DNA of 35,088 nt from Clostridia bacterium. GTDB taxonomy: Bacteria; Bacillota; Clostridia; Christensenellales; Aristaeellaceae. Of the stretch, positions 7,833 to 35,060 are shown one piece after another. Both the position numbers and the translations under genes were made by a program. The DNA lies in assembly GCA_017463245.1 (NCBI GenBank), contig JAFTPN010000011.1:1-35088 (forward strand). Reading direction: 5' to 3'. The notes beneath the pieces were generated by a model. It did no database searches, was not told the origin of the DNA, and saw only the letters and a program-made list of their open reading frames with translations. The number at the start of each line of letters is the position of its first letter. The stretch's first letter is position 1.

Positions 7833-7895
7833 GGCAGAAAACTCCTTCCGTCAGCCGCAAGCGGCTGCCACCTCCCTCGGAGAGGGAGGCTTAGT
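7833..7895 (-). repeat. Repeat family 1, copy A
   Basis: About 63 bases, nearly identical to 13015-13077, 17635-17698 and (same strand as here) 34993-35060. Read on the minus strand it has a CCTCCCTC/GAGGGAGG hairpin, then GCAGCCGC/GCGGCTG, then ACGGAAGGAG and a TTCTGCC end. Confidence 0.85.
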
Positions 7896-13014: not shown

Positions 13015-13077
13015 ACTAAGCCTCCCTCTTTGAGGGAGGTGGCAGCCGCTTGCGGCTGACGGAAGGAGGGTTCTGCC
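13015..13077 (+). repeat. Repeat family 1, copy B, supplying the RBS of the GNAT gene
   Basis: Same unit as copies A, C and D. Its conserved ACGGAAGGAG segment gives AAGGAGG at 13063-13069, 8 bases before the ATG at 13078. The TTCTGCCA end runs directly into that start codon. Confidence 0.85.
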
Positions 13078-17634: not shown

Positions 17635-17698
17635 AAAGCCTCCCTCCTTGAGGGAGGTGGCAGCCGCTTGCGGCTGACGGAAGGAGTGGTTCTGCCAC
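17635..17698 (+). repeat. Repeat family 1, copy C
   Basis: CCTCCCTCCTTGAGGGAGG hairpin, GCAGCCGC/GCGGCTG hairpin, then ACGGAAGGAGTGGTTCTGCC. Here the embedded Shine-Dalgarno-like AAGGAG is not followed by a start codon. Confidence 0.85.
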
Positions 17699-27997: not shown

Positions 27998-29191
27998 ATG
28001 ACCGAGGTAAGAGGACTGAAAATGGAGGAATTGGCGGCGTACAACAAGCTGTCCTCCATCTGCTTCACCTACTGCGTAAAGACAGAAAACCTGACCCCAA
28101 ATGAAATGTCCTCGGAGAAGCTGCGCCAGTACCGCGGCTGCTTTGACGAGGATGGCACGCTGCTGGGCGGCATGATCCTGCTGGACATGAACTGCCGCTT
28201 TGAGGGGAACACCTGCCGTTTCTTCGGCGTGGGCGGCGTGGTGACCGACCCGGCAGAGCGCCGCAGGGGTGCTATCCGGCAGATTTTCGAAGCCGATCTG
28301 CCCCGTATGTACGAAGAGGGCTTTGTCCTCAGCGCGCTGTACCCCTTCAGCCATGAGTTCTACCGCAAGTTCGGCTACGAGCTGGGCATCCTGCGGCATA
28401 CGATGAAGTTCAGCCCCGGCAGCCTGCGCAAGGATCTGCACCGGGCGGCTGCCATCCGCCGCATTCTGTCTGATGAGCCCGACGGCGGCATGAAGCAGGT
28501 GTATGAACGCTACATGGCCGACAAAAACCTGGGCATTCTCCGCAGCGATGAGCAATGGAAGGAGCTCCGCGGCGGCACGCCCTGGGAAAACCAGAAGCAC
28601 AGCTATGTGCTCTACAACGAGGCGGATGAGCCCATTGCCTACTGGATCGGCACCATGTCCAAGGGTGGCGATGAGTCCCTGCTGTCCATTGACGACCTGG
28701 CTTATGTCAGCCGCGAGGGCATGGAGGCCATCTTCGCCATGCTGCGCAGCATGAACGAGGTGGGCACGGTGAAGCTGGTCGCGCCCCAGGACATGCCCAT
28801 CCGCTACCTGGTGGCCGACCCCTACCATGTGGACGAGGAGTGCATCTGCGGGGGCATGGTGCGCATCGTGAATGTGGAGCAGGTGCTGGGGATGCTTCCT
28901 GCGCCTGCACTGACGGGCAGCTGCACCGTGGAGGTCAGCGATGGTCAGATTGCCGCGAACAACGGACGGTTCACCATCTCCGGCGACGGAGAGACGCTGA
29001 CCGTCACCCGCACGGAAAATGCCCCTGATCTGCGCTGCACGATTGGTGGCCTGTCCGCGCTGGCGGTAAATGCCATGGACCTCCAGCAATGCCTGGACGC
29101 CCGGCTGGCGGAACTGGTTCAGCCGGATAACAGGCGCTTTATGGCGGAATTGTTCCGGGCAAGGAAGCAGCATTTGCATAACTATTTTTAA
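27998..29191 (+). CDS. Eis-like GNAT acetyltransferase with sterol-carrier-type C-terminal domain
   Basis: A 397-residue protein with the Eis layout: an N-terminal GNAT domain (1-140, acetyl-CoA loop VGGVVTDPAERRRGAIRQIF near 78-97, then YPFSHEFYRKFGYELG), a central second GNAT-like fold, and a C-terminal SCP2-like domain (about 295-397). It ends in an aromatic residue with a free carboxylate (NYF), which in Eis acts in catalysis. Mycobacterial Eis acetylates aminoglycosides and other amines at several sites; the substrate here is unknown. AAGGAGA precedes the ATG. The gene is monocistronic, closed by a terminator at 29211. Confidence 0.88.
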   Translation: MTEVRGLKMEELAAYNKLSSICFTYCVKTENLTPNEMSSEKLRQYRGCFDEDGTLLGGMILLDMNCRFEGNTCRFFGVGGVVTDPAERRRGAIRQIFEADLPRMYEEGFVLSALYPFSHEFYRKFGYELGILRHTMKFSPGSLRKDLHRAAAIRRILSDEPDGGMKQVYERYMADKNLGILRSDEQWKELRGGTPWENQKHSYVLYNEADEPIAYWIGTMSKGGDESLLSIDDLAYVSREGMEAIFAMLRSMNEVGTVKLVAPQDMPIRYLVADPYHVDEECICGGMVRIVNVEQVLGMLPAPALTGSCTVEVSDGQIAANNGRFTISGDGETLTVTRTENAPDLRCTIGGLSALAVNAMDLQQCLDARLAELVQPDNRRFMAELFRARKQHLHNYF

Positions 29192-29210
29192 TGCAGCCAT
29201 TGGATATCCC

Positions 29211-29234
29211 AGCCGCTCCATAGGGGCGGCTTTT
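29211..29234 (+). terminator. Terminator after the Eis-like gene
   Basis: AGCCGCTCC (29211-29219) pairs with GGGGCGGCT (29223-29231) with one G-T pair and a 3-base loop, then TTTTCCTGTTTT. Confidence 0.75.
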
Positions 29235-29281
29235 CCTGTTTTCCGATTAAAACGGGCACTAAAGTGTGTACTGCATAAAAG

Positions 29282-29317
29282 AAAAACCCCTCGAAACCTT
29301 TGTGTTTCAAGGGGTTT
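29282..29317 (-). terminator. Terminator of the tRNA pair
   Basis: On the minus strand AACCCCT-mismatch-GAAAC pairs with GTTTC-mismatch-AGGGGTT, then TTTTTCTTTT. It lies 6 bases after tRNA-Pro. Confidence 0.8.
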
Positions 29318-29323
29318 GCTATG

Positions 29324-29397
29324 TCGAAGTGGCGGGATTCGAACCCGCGGCCTTTTGGTCCCGAACCAAACGCGCTACCAAACTGCGCTACACCTCG
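29324..29397 (-). tRNA. tRNA-Pro (anticodon CGG)
   Basis: Full cloverleaf: acceptor CGAGGTG/CACTTCG with a C1-G72 pair typical of bacterial tRNA-Pro, D arm GCGC/GCGC, anticodon stem TTTGG/CCAAA with loop TTCGGGA (anticodon CGG, reads CCG), T arm GCGGG-TTCGAAT-CCCGC, discriminator A73. The CCA end is not encoded. Confidence 0.93.
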
Positions 29398-29471
29398 GTG
29401 ATCGTCGGGCAAGCCCGACTCATCTCCGGCCGACCCCGGCGCGAAGCAGCAGGATCGACTGAAAATGCTGG

Positions 29472-29544
<73 letters not shown>

Positions 29545-29561
29545 ACAAACCAGCACATGAT

Positions 29562-29590
29562 ATTATAGCAAAGGATGCGCGGTTTGTCCA
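29562..29590 (-). promoter_or_regulatory. Sigma-A promoter of the tRNA pair
   Basis: On the minus strand TGGACA (29590-29585) and TATAAT (29567-29562) are 17 bases apart, about 10 bases before the likely start of the precursor tRNA. Confidence 0.85.
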
Positions 29591-31882: not shown

Positions 31883-32317
31883 TTACCCTTCCCAATGCTC
31901 CAACTCCTCTGCCGGATACGCCTTCGTCCAATGGTAGGGCTGCAGCTCCCGCAGCTCAACAAAGGTCAGCTGGCTGTCCGGGGTGGTGACGGCCACTTGC
32001 ACGTCCTCGCCCCAGTAGCGCAGGCGCTCCTGGCAGATGCCGCAGGGGGACAGCACCTGGTAGGGGGAATGCTCATCCTCCCGGACGAGGCACATGCAAT
32101 GGGTGACCTTCTCGTTGTATTTGTGGGCTTCCAGCATGGCGCCGGTCTCAATGCACAATACGGCTGAGCCATTGGCCGTGTCGATGCACACGCTGGTGAA
32201 GTAGTTCCCGCTGGCAGTATGCACAACGCCAGCGCCGCCCCAGCCCGTGGGGTAGCGCTTTTCGATCAGCTCCACCGCTAAGCGGTACATTTCCTGTTCA
32301 ATATCGTGGTTTCGCAT
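31883..32317 (-). CDS. Cytidine deaminase-like zinc hydrolase
   Basis: A 144-residue protein of the cytidine/blasticidin-S deaminase fold. Zinc site: Cys55 and the proton-shuttling Glu57 in VLCIETGAM, and Cys92 and Cys95 in SPCGICQERL. Length fits a tetrameric cytidine deaminase, but the substrate could be cytidine or another aminated ring. The C-terminus (YHWTKAYPAEELEHWEG) has the aromatic residues usual in this group. GAAGGAGA before the ATG; 16 bases after the HisIE-fusion stop. Confidence 0.88.
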   Translation of the reverse strand: MRNHDIEQEMYRLAVELIEKRYPTGWGGAGVVHTASGNYFTSVCIDTANGSAVLCIETGAMLEAHKYNEKVTHCMCLVREDEHSPYQVLSPCGICQERLRYWGEDVQVAVTTPDSQLTFVELRELQPYHWTKAYPAEELEHWEG

Positions 32318-32333: not shown

Positions 32334-33560
32334 TTAGTGGCGGTTCTTCAGCACTTCCCACACATCCCGCATGGGTACGCCCTGCTGGTGCAAAAGCACC
32401 GCCAGGTGATACAGCAGGTCGGCGGCTTCGCCCGCCAGGCCGTCGGCGTCGTTCTTCATGGCGGCAATGATGGTCTCGCTGGCTTCTTCGCCCACCTTCT
32501 TGCAGATCTTCTCCGCGCCCTTGTTCAGCAGATAGTTGGTGTAGCTGCCCTCTTTGGGGTTGGCGGCGCGGTCGGCAATGGTCTTTTCCAGCGTGTCCAG
32601 AATGGCGGCGGTAGCGGGCATTTCGCCGTTGATCACGGGGTTGTGGAAGCAGCTCCGCTCTCCGGTGTGGCAGGCGGGGCCAACTTGATCCACCTGCATG
32701 AGGATGGAGTCCCCGTCGCAGTCGTAGCTCAGGCGAATGACCCGCTGCAAATGGCCGCTGGTGGCACCCTTGCGCCACAGCTCCTGGCGGCTGCGGCTGT
32801 AATAGGTGGCATAGCCGCTGTCCAGGGTGGCTTGCAGGGATTCGGCATTCATGTAAGCCTGCATCAGCACCTCGCCGGTGTAGGCGTCCTGGGCAATGGC
32901 AGGCACCAGGCCGCGGGCGTCGTAGCAGATGGCGCTGAGGTCAGCGGCGCTGGCCACGGGGGCGGTGTTCTGCTCCATGAGGGCATACAGCTCCGGGGTC
33001 ACGACGCCGCGCAGGGTCTCCATGGCCTGGGCGTACTGGTTCTCGTAGCCGTAGAAGGTGTCCTGGGGCTGGAGCTTGAAGCCCAGGGAAATGTACAGCG
33101 GAATGGCCTTCCAGCTCCACGGTTGGGTGTGGAGGTACACGGGTTTGGCGTTATCCTCCCGGCGGAAGAGGCGCAGCACGTTCTGGCACAGGGCGCGGCC
33201 AAGCCCCTTGCGGCGGTGGTCGGCACGCACCACCAGCCAATGCAGCGCACGGACGCCCACGCCCCGGGGGTCATCCTCCCAGGCGATGGCGCTGCCCACG
33301 ATTTCATCTTCCGGAGAGATCGCAAAGAACACCCGCTCCGGCGACCAGGCGGGGTTGCTCAGATAACGCCGGGCGAAGTCGGCCTTGGCGGCTTCAACGG
33401 TGTCGAAATCACCAATGCCGCATTCCAGCGCAGCCCAGGCGTCTTCGTCACCGCTCTGATAGGTGCGGATGGCATAGCCCGCGGGCAGCTTCACTTCCAT
33501 GGGCAGGATGCGGTCGCAGCGCATGATGGTATGATGAAAGGGAATGGTCTTGTCCAGCAT
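32334..33560 (-). CDS. hisIE: GNAT acetyltransferase-HisI-HisE fusion protein
   Basis: A 408-residue three-domain protein. Residues about 28-180 form a GNAT fold with the acetyl-CoA loop VVRADHRRKGLGRALCQNVL and the WSWKAIPLYISLGF helix-strand. Residues about 207-315 are HisI (phosphoribosyl-AMP cyclohydrolase): DCDGD (280-284) for Mg and Zn, and Cys297 and Cys304 completing the zinc site. Residues about 321-405 are HisE (phosphoribosyl-ATP pyrophosphatase): KICKKVGEEASETIIAA and GEAADLLYHLAVLL. HisIE fusions are normal; an N-terminal GNAT is not. AAGGAG, overlapping the hisA stop, sets the ATG at 33560, and the frame is unbroken. HisI and HisE carry out steps 3 and 2 of histidine synthesis; the GNAT role is unknown. 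Confidence 0.93.
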   Translation of the reverse strand: MLDKTIPFHHTIMRCDRILPMEVKLPAGYAIRTYQSGDEDAWAALECGIGDFDTVEAAKADFARRYLSNPAWSPERVFFAISPEDEIVGSAIAWEDDPRGVGVRALHWLVVRADHRRKGLGRALCQNVLRLFRREDNAKPVYLHTQPWSWKAIPLYISLGFKLQPQDTFYGYENQYAQAMETLRGVVTPELYALMEQNTAPVASAADLSAICYDARGLVPAIAQDAYTGEVLMQAYMNAESLQATLDSGYATYYSRSRQELWRKGATSGHLQRVIRLSYDCDGDSILMQVDQVGPACHTGERSCFHNPVINGEMPATAAILDTLEKTIADRAANPKEGSYTNYLLNKGAEKICKKVGEEASETIIAAMKNDADGLAGEAADLLYHLAVLLHQQGVPMRDVWEVLKNRH

Positions 33561-33563
33561 AGC

Positions 33564-34277
33564 TTACTCCTTGTTGGCGGCAAGTGCCTCTTCCAGCGTG
33601 AAGGCGTTCTCGTACAGGGCTTTGCCCAGAATGGCGCCCGCGCAGCCCGCGGCGCGGAAGTCGGCAAGGTCCTTCAGGCAGCTCACGCCGCCGGAGCCGA
33701 TGATCTCCATGCCGGTCTCTTCCACCAGCTTGCGGGTGGCGGCCACATTGGGGCCCTGCATCATGCCATCGCGGCTGATGTCGGTGTAGATGATGGTGGT
33801 CACGCCGTAGTTCTTCATTTGCAGAGCCAGCTCGGCGGCGGTCATGTCGGCGGTGGAGACCCAGCCACGCAGGGCGACCTTGCCGTTCTTGGCGTCGATG
33901 CCCACGGCAATGCGGCCGGGGTAGGCCGCGCAGGCCTCCCGCACCAGCTCCGGGTTCTCCGCTGCCGCCGTACCGATGATGCAGCGCTGCACGCCAGCTT
34001 CCATGCGCAGACGGATGTCCTCCATGGTGCGCAGGCCGCCGCCCAGCTCCACCGGGCCATCAAAGGCGGCCACGATGTTCCGCAAAAGGGGCAGGTGCTG
34101 GGTTTTGCCGTCGAAGGCAGCGCCCAGGTCCACCAGGTGCAGCCACTCGGCACCCTTGCTGCGCCACTTGCGAGCCAGCGCCACGGGATCGCCATAAACG
34201 GTGACATCCTCGCGCTTGCCCTGGCGCAGGCGCACGGCCTGGCCATCCAACAGATCAATAGCAGGATAAAGAATCAT
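33564..34277 (-). CDS. hisA: Phosphoribosylformimino-5-aminoimidazole carboxamide ribotide isomerase
   Basis: HisA isomerises ProFAR to PRFAR in histidine synthesis. The 237-residue TIM barrel has the catalytic Asp8 in PAIDLLDGQAVRL, the phosphate sites ELGGGLRTMED and IIGSGGVS, and the second catalytic Asp in YTDISRDGMM. It lies 9 bases after hisB and 3 bases before the fusion gene. hisH and hisF, which usually flank hisA, are missing from this run. Confidence 0.95.
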   Translation of the reverse strand: MILYPAIDLLDGQAVRLRQGKREDVTVYGDPVALARKWRSKGAEWLHLVDLGAAFDGKTQHLPLLRNIVAAFDGPVELGGGLRTMEDIRLRMEAGVQRCIIGTAAAENPELVREACAAYPGRIAVGIDAKNGKVALRGWVSTADMTAAELALQMKNYGVTTIIYTDISRDGMMQGPNVAATRKLVEETGMEIIGSGGVSCLKDLADFRAAGCAGAILGKALYENAFTLEEALAANKE

Positions 34278-34286
34278 ACGTCCTCC

Positions 34287-34874
34287 TTAATCCAGCGCAC
34301 CTTTAGTGGAAAGCACACCGGTGATCCGGGGATCCGCCGCCATGGCGTCCCGCAGAGCCAGACCGAAGGCCTTGAACATGGCCTCCAGCTTGTGGTGATC
34401 GTTGCGGCCAGCCACCACGTTCAGGTGAACGGTGAGCCCGGCGTTGACGACCACGGCGCGGAAGAATTCCTCCGCCATCTGCACACCCATGTCGCCGCAG
34501 CGCAGGGTGGCAAAATCGGCGGTGTAGGCCAGGTAAGGCCGGCCGCTGATGTCGATGGCGGCAAAGGCCAGCGCCTCGTCCATGGGCATGTAGGCGGAAC
34601 CCACCCGGCGGATGCCCGCCCGGTCGCCCAGGGCGTCGCGGATGGCCTTGCCCAGGCAAATGCCCACATCCTCGATGGTGTGGTGTTCATCCACATACAG
34701 GTCGCCCTTGCAGGTGACGTTCAGATCCACCAGCGCAAAGCGGCTGAAGGCGTCCAGCATATGGTCGAAGAAGCCCACGCCGGTAGCCAGCTGGGTCTTG
34801 CCGGAACCATCGAGATCGATGGTGAGGGAAATGGTGGTTTCCTTGGTTTCGCGGGTGATGGTGGCAGTACGCAT
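34287..34874 (-). CDS. hisB: Imidazoleglycerol-phosphate dehydratase
   Basis: Dehydrates imidazole glycerol phosphate. The 195 residues contain GVGFFDHML, EHHTIEDVGI and the second metal site NDHHKLEAMFK, all typical of the Mn-dependent monofunctional enzyme. The frame continues upstream through repeat DNA to 34997, but ATG 34874 has AGGAGG 5 bases before it and matches the family start. It is the first histidine gene visible; a family 4-3-1 repeat cassette lies directly upstream. Confidence 0.95.
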   Translation of the reverse strand: MRTATITRETKETTISLTIDLDGSGKTQLATGVGFFDHMLDAFSRFALVDLNVTCKGDLYVDEHHTIEDVGICLGKAIRDALGDRAGIRRVGSAYMPMDEALAFAAIDISGRPYLAYTADFATLRCGDMGVQMAEEFFRAVVVNAGLTVHLNVVAGRNDHHKLEAMFKAFGLALRDAMAADPRITGVLSTKGALD

Positions 34875-34992: not shown

Positions 34993-35060
34993 GGCAAGTG
35001 GCAGAACCACTCCTTCCGTCAGCCGCAAGCGGCTGCCACCTCCCTCGGGGAGGGAGGCTC
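34993..35060 (-). repeat. Repeat family 1, copy D
   Basis: On the minus strand GAGCCTCCCTC hairpin, GCAGCCGC/GCGGCTG, ACGGAAGGAGTGGTTCTGCC, then ACTTGC as in copy C. Confidence 0.85.

Follow-up and report, generated by a model that had tools for sequence, protein, structure and literature searches.

The window, by which we mean the whole stretch of DNA analyzed (35,088 nucleotides), is a complete contig of a 2.7-Mb genome (G000) rated 91% complete. On its minus strand, a single frame at positions 32334–33560 encodes a GNAT-HisI-HisE protein of 408 residues, with the ATG start at 33560 and the stop codon, included in the interval, at 32334. A Shine-Dalgarno sequence, AGGAG (33567–33571, minus strand), stands 6 nt before the ATG and overlaps the last codons of hisA (33564–34277, minus strand), which lies directly upstream with 3 bases between the two genes. 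Upstream of hisA is hisB (34287–34874, minus strand), whose frame is open to 34997 and matches its family from residue 41–42. The GNAT part comprises approximately residues 1–200 (32961–33560, minus strand), as delimited by end-to-end alignment with free GNATs of sister genera, and is followed by a linker of about four residues (approximately 201–204; 32949–32960, minus strand) and a complete HisIE part (approximately 205–408; 32337–32948, minus strand), the initiator Met of free HisIEs corresponding to residue ~205.

The acetyltransferase is recognized by Pfam as Acetyltransf_1 (PF00583; residues 70–161, 1e-14, 55.2 bits versus a cut-off of 20.7). The pyrophosphate loop through which GNATs bind acetyl-CoA has the motif Q/R-x-x-G-x-G/A, and is present as RRKGLG at residues 116–121 (33198–33215, minus strand). 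In the remainder of the chain, the HisI (PRA-CH) match spans residues 233–306 (32643–32864, minus strand; Pfam 1.8e-34) and the HisE (PRA-PH) domain residues 322–408 (32337–32597, minus strand; Pfam 1.7e-24); with PRA-CH preceding PRA-PH in one chain, the protein qualifies as a bifunctional HisIE by Pfam and NCBIfam, and the HisIE equivalog NF002747 covers residues 206–408 with 271.6 bits against a cut-off of 187. A sequence-only reading had described one unbroken frame with its own Shine-Dalgarno sequence, holding a complete GNAT domain with an acetyl-CoA loop at about 111–130, HisI with all metal ligands, and HisE. Our analysis confirms each of these points, and adds the minus-strand placement; the plus-strand frame that is open in this interval is not the gene.

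Elsewhere in the window, a cytidine deaminase-type gene (31883–32317, minus strand) comes directly after the fusion and, of the fusion loci compared, is present only in those of G000, G004 and G014. Two tRNA genes are located at 29324–29397 and 29472–29544 (minus strand), and the frames 29070–29462 and 29266–29568 on the opposite strand, which overlap these genes, are probably spurious. A further acetyltransferase gene (27998–29191, plus strand) is Eis-like by weak NCBIfam matches and has an SCP2-type C-terminal domain. Two families of 51-nt repeats are present in two copies each, 98% alike (7841–7891 and 35009–35059; 13018–13068 and 17636–17686); one of the copies, upstream of hisB and 29 bases short of the contig end, may explain why the contig stops there.

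We evaluated whether the fused frame is genuine. Of the 18 genomes of the genus, 14 carry the full-length fusion, free of internal stops, for a total of 15 copies (two in G008) at 65–91% identity to the window protein, and a purine-rich stretch precedes the ATG in all 14 other copies, although farther off in G016. A second contig of the window's own genome (C43, 3.6 kb) starts inside the fusion gene at residue 210, which could be taken to indicate a break; its identity across the 2,097 bases compared is 99.9%, and we take it for redundancy of assembly or strain rather than for a broken frame. Because 14 of the 18 genomes carry the frame intact, the fusion is no assembly slip, and a frame break or misassembly was rejected; specifically, the frame runs intact through all 15 copies from 14 assemblies, with no stop or frameshift near residues 190–205. 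We also scanned codons 171–235 of the 15 copies for ATG, GTG or TTG codons preceded by a Shine-Dalgarno core. Between codons 188 and 226 none of the copies contains such a start. AAGG precedes GTG187 in two copies, and GAGG precedes an ATG at approximately codon 233 in nine; the latter lies within HisI, and its GAGG results from the conserved GEVLM codons. A separate HisIE from an internal start was rejected, since the linker is devoid of a start with a Shine-Dalgarno core in all 15 copies. The probability that the fusion is an assembly artefact, or that the halves are made separately, is in our judgment negligible.

The remaining genomes of the genus either encode HisIE alone (G015 and G017) or yield no HisIE match (G001 and G013). 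Six of the genomes with the fusion correspond to MAG records (L042–L047), four of which name ruminant gut samples. No full-length fusion from outside the genus was found among the matches listed for 200 family genomes, a draw in which 11 genomes belong to the genus and 7 of these carry the fusion, nor among 396 order and 391 class genomes, where the sole match in both cases was the window's own genome. The order and class searches were run at an E-value of 1e-80, and a fusion involving a very different GNAT would therefore escape them. Long open frames preceding other HisIEs, inspected by eye at eight loci, were taken as chance frames in G+C-rich DNA. The gene is thus a real, conserved domain fusion at the level of one genus.

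Of the genomes without a HisIE match, both rated 94–96% complete, G013 contains hisH, hisF and hisC with no strong hisA match, and G001 gives only a weak HisA/HisF match. On contig G011:C169 (L020) there is another, distantly related set of hisA, hisF and hisIE, possibly a contaminant of the G011 genome; its hisIE match (46% identity) is interrupted by a stop codon.

The HisIE half retains its metal ligands. The metal ligands named in the available text on MtHISN2 of Medicago (PMC8102479) have counterparts in the fusion: Asp125/127/129, Cys126/142/149 and His143 of HisI correspond to D280/D282/D284, C281/C297/C304 and H298 (32649–32723, minus strand), and Glu214, Glu217, Glu234 and Asp237 of HisE to E359, E362, E378 and D381. 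None of these residues varies among the 15 fused copies. By our own reading of the alignment, MtHISN2 Glu220 corresponds to I365; the same text shows that its authors doubt the Glu220 metal site. Residues ~205–408 also match nearly the full length of the bifunctional HisIE in PDB entry 6j2l (4.4e-44). Unlike the fusion, the chains in 6j2l and in the MtHISN2 entries 7bgm and 7bgn have no N-terminal acetyltransferase. The full conservation of domains and ligands suggests that the HisIE half catalyzes the second and third steps of histidine synthesis.

The GNAT half is most informatively compared with six free GNATs from sister genera (L098–L103; 198–199 residues), which are separate genes, 48–53% identical to it and alignable from first to last residue. 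Across the 15 fused and 6 free sequences 37 columns are invariant, among them the loop glycines G119 and G121. Another 22 columns are invariant in the fused copies but not in the free GNATs, including R17, L19–M21, R32, R76, R133–R134 and D136–N137; they could mark a change of substrate or a surface that meets HisIE. The GNAT fold is recovered in the predicted structure (pLDDT 79.1, pTM 0.45, at which the arrangement of domains is unreliable). In the model, the nearest folds are the C-terminal domain of MshD (mycothiol synthase), VipF and GlmA, at 12–21% identity, and a common fold does not give the substrate. A sequence search of the PDB gave weak matches (best Naa10, 2e-6), from which no substrate was deduced.

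Both halves seem to be kept by selection. We computed dN/dS for the 20 pairs closest by HisIE, and five of these, selected for closeness in both halves (G004/G010, G006/G002, G000/G004, G000/G010 and G003/G011), gave values of 0.08–0.14 for the GNAT and 0.055–0.15 for HisIE. For codons 191–210 the values were 0.55–0.88 in four of the five pairs, and 0.05 in G003/G011. Hence, in close pairs, both domains are under constraint and the linker is mostly unconstrained. The pairs beyond the five had higher values (medians of 0.25 for the GNAT and 0.22 for HisIE), with synonymous sites partly saturated. These observations bear on whether the GNAT is simply a folded leader on which translation of hisIE depends, and whose acetyltransferase activity, if any, does not matter. 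Such a role is consistent with the patchy occurrence of free GNATs in the family (any match in 82 of 200 genomes, most of them weak), and with the variation between genomes of the passengers in a second his cluster, described below. More drift would be expected of a mere leader, and the linker for the most part shows it. In the five close pairs, the GNAT instead roughly equals HisIE in its low dN/dS, and it shares 37 invariant columns with the free GNATs, the two loop glycines among them. We consider the leader explanation quite unlikely.

The two halves do not always share a history. The G014 and G000 HisIEs are 96% identical and their GNATs only 59%, the G014 GNAT being nearest to those of G007 (71%) and G009 (68%); dN/dS for G000/G014 is 0.31 for the GNAT and 0.07 for HisIE, and more distant pairs also have higher values. 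In G012, the GNAT is nearest to G004 and G010 (84%), and the HisIE to G003, G009 and G011 (83%). The domain trees conflict with AU p values of 7e-5, 0.002 and 7e-5, for groups picked after the trees were seen. The fused copies of G014 and G012 show signs of domain-wise recombination, in which halves may have been swapped singly between species.

With respect to a role of the GNAT in histidine synthesis, the fusion gene is situated with hisB and hisA in the window, genes for a HisZ-like protein, HisG and HisD are found upstream in the congener L042, and hisH-hisF-hisC are on another contig (C10, L130) of the window's genome; the genome of the window itself, which is incomplete, gave no HisZ when searched. 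No histidine T-box or other Rfam leader reached the gathering score in the ~330–355 bases upstream of the HisZ-like gene in L042 and L046.

Histidinol and histidinol phosphate carry free amines. The GNAT might acetylate a histidine intermediate or lysine residues in His enzymes, HisIE included, and in this way tie flux to acetyl-CoA; modification of an intermediate, or of the enzyme itself with a link to acetyl-CoA, had been offered by the sequence-only reading. The stability of the fusion within a row of his genes, the constraint on the GNAT and the residues invariant only in fused copies speak for such coupling. Against it, G015 and G017 have hisB, hisA and plain hisIE and no GNAT relative, the trees of the halves conflict, and the fusion was not found beyond one genus among the genomes searched. 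Furthermore, none of 10 proteins scanned beside free GNATs (6 loci, ~1.5 kb on each side) is a his enzyme; two of the 10 have no family and one has a match below the cut-off, and the neighbors include flavin reductase, CobW-like, phosphorylase, methyltransferase, peptidoglycan-binding and other GNAT genes. Based on the tree conflict, the lack of his neighbors and the two his-positive congeners without a GNAT, a role of the GNAT in histidine synthesis is unlikely, and modification of an intermediate is disfavored. We consider the pathway-coupled enzyme as a whole quite unlikely. A related idea, in which the GNAT was re-purposed such that the fused-only residues confer specificity for an amine of the pathway or lysines of His enzymes, and acetyl-CoA feeds back on histidine synthesis, strikes us as distinctly improbable. 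We know of no description of the histidine pathway that includes acetyl-CoA feedback of this kind.

The second his cluster offers a parallel, in that it also takes up passengers. In 7 of 16 hisF loci, 350–700 bases holding different open frames separate hisF from hisC; at one further locus hisC was not found, and the gap in L125 contains no convincing gene. In the window's own genome, the gap is occupied by a different GNAT gene (L130:907–1398, minus strand), for which tblastn found no match in the other loci compared; the corresponding gaps of six further congeners contain different open frames. A cycle of acetylation and deacetylation with an amidohydrolase encoded beside hisH was rejected. 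The amidohydrolase gene occurs in 7 of the 16 hisF loci, three of which are from genomes without the fusion (G013, G015 and G017), and was not found in the other nine, all from genomes with the fusion (five of these loci end ~260–730 bases from hisH); it therefore does not follow the fusion.

How, then, might the fusion have arisen? The six free GNATs align with fused residues 1 to ~200, six of eight free family HisIEs begin with M..D(L/I/F)(S/N).(I/V) at the position of fused residue ~205, and codon 205 of the fused gene in G006 is still ATG. It follows from these end-to-end matches and free HisIE starts that the halves were joined at their natural ends via about four residues. The order hisA followed directly by free hisIE, seen in G015 and G017, is likely the older one. 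In a tree with 17 of the 23 free-GNAT loci L098–L120, the relatives compared being from this family, the fused GNATs form one group (support 89/94; 88% of 200 bootstrap trees), as do the fused HisIEs in a tree with 23 selected free HisIEs (support 88/89).

From the anatomy and the trees we propose that (i) an ancestor shared by most of the genus acquired, by insertion between hisA and hisIE, a free GNAT gene of ~199 codons, of a kind scattered in the family, and (ii) the inserted gene then lost its stop codon, resulting in read-through via the short linker into an intact HisIE. That insertion preceded stop loss is inferred; none of the genomes examined showed hisA and hisIE with a free-standing GNAT gene between them. 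None of the 14 genomes with the fusion has lost the GNAT half, the loss of which could also remove the hisIE start. Judging from its constraint and kept loop, the GNAT half would remain an acetyl-CoA-dependent acyltransferase acting on a small amine or peptide substrate of its own, riding on HisIE, which is a dimer among HisIE relatives. The fusion would fix the ratio of the two activities under the his operon, with no need for shared chemistry. Taken as a whole, the sequence evidence is best explained by a passenger acetyltransferase that was captured and fused and has kept a function of its own, and we regard this explanation as probable. The suggestion that the GNAT simply rides along was the best supported of the roles offered by the sequence-only reading, except that, as judged by dN/dS, the GNAT looks maintained by selection.

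That two proteins work together is widely predicted from the fusion of their genes. The locus presents a stable, constrained fusion amid biosynthetic genes that apparently originated by passenger capture, its halves later exchanged one at a time, and GNAT-HisIE thereby offers a natural case for asking to what extent a fusion signifies a joint function. The fusion is also a lead to the substrate of an uncharacterized GNAT group.

Among known systems, the in-frame fusions of his genes are the obvious comparison. The accessible portions of the relevant papers count five his fusions (PMC1963479), add the archaeal HisA/F-HisIE (PMC11237513) and list HisI/HisE (PMC4921024). Like the fusion gene, hisIE, hisNB, HIS4 (hisIED), HIS7 (hisHF) and the archaeal HisA/F-HisIE are in-frame his fusions (PMC1963479, PMC11237513); as far as the accessible text of these sources goes, they join his enzymes to each other and none has a GNAT partner (PMC1963479, PMC11237513, PMC4921024). 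No description of a GNAT-HisIE fusion was found in the open-licence literature searched, and the architecture is, as far as searched, new, in agreement with the earlier remark that an N-terminal GNAT on HisIE is unusual.

The nearest precedent, from the portion of the report accessible, is ArgH(A), an argininosuccinate lyase fused to a GNAT (PMC1382215). By analogy, the fused GNAT could be an N-acetylglutamate synthase that feeds arginine synthesis from a his gene, and this idea agrees with a faint resemblance to CG3035, a family of N-acetylglutamate synthases. Against it, the CG3035 score is 21.8 versus a cut-off of 280. Of the 18 genus genomes, 13 have argJ, among them G000, where an argC-like gene is adjacent, and G003, G005, G011 and G016 keep the fusion while lacking argJ and the stronger argC-like match; none of the 18 genomes has an argC match at the family cut-off, and the naming of argC is therefore unsure. 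We judge an arginine role to be very unlikely. The partner here is HisIE and not ArgH, although both fusions place a GNAT in frame with an amino-acid biosynthetic enzyme, in the operon of that enzyme, and are confined to one bacterial group. As the accessible text describes it, the GNAT of ArgH(A) is C-terminal and complements argA (PMC1382215), whereas the window fusion carries the putative acetyltransferase at the N-terminus of HisIE.
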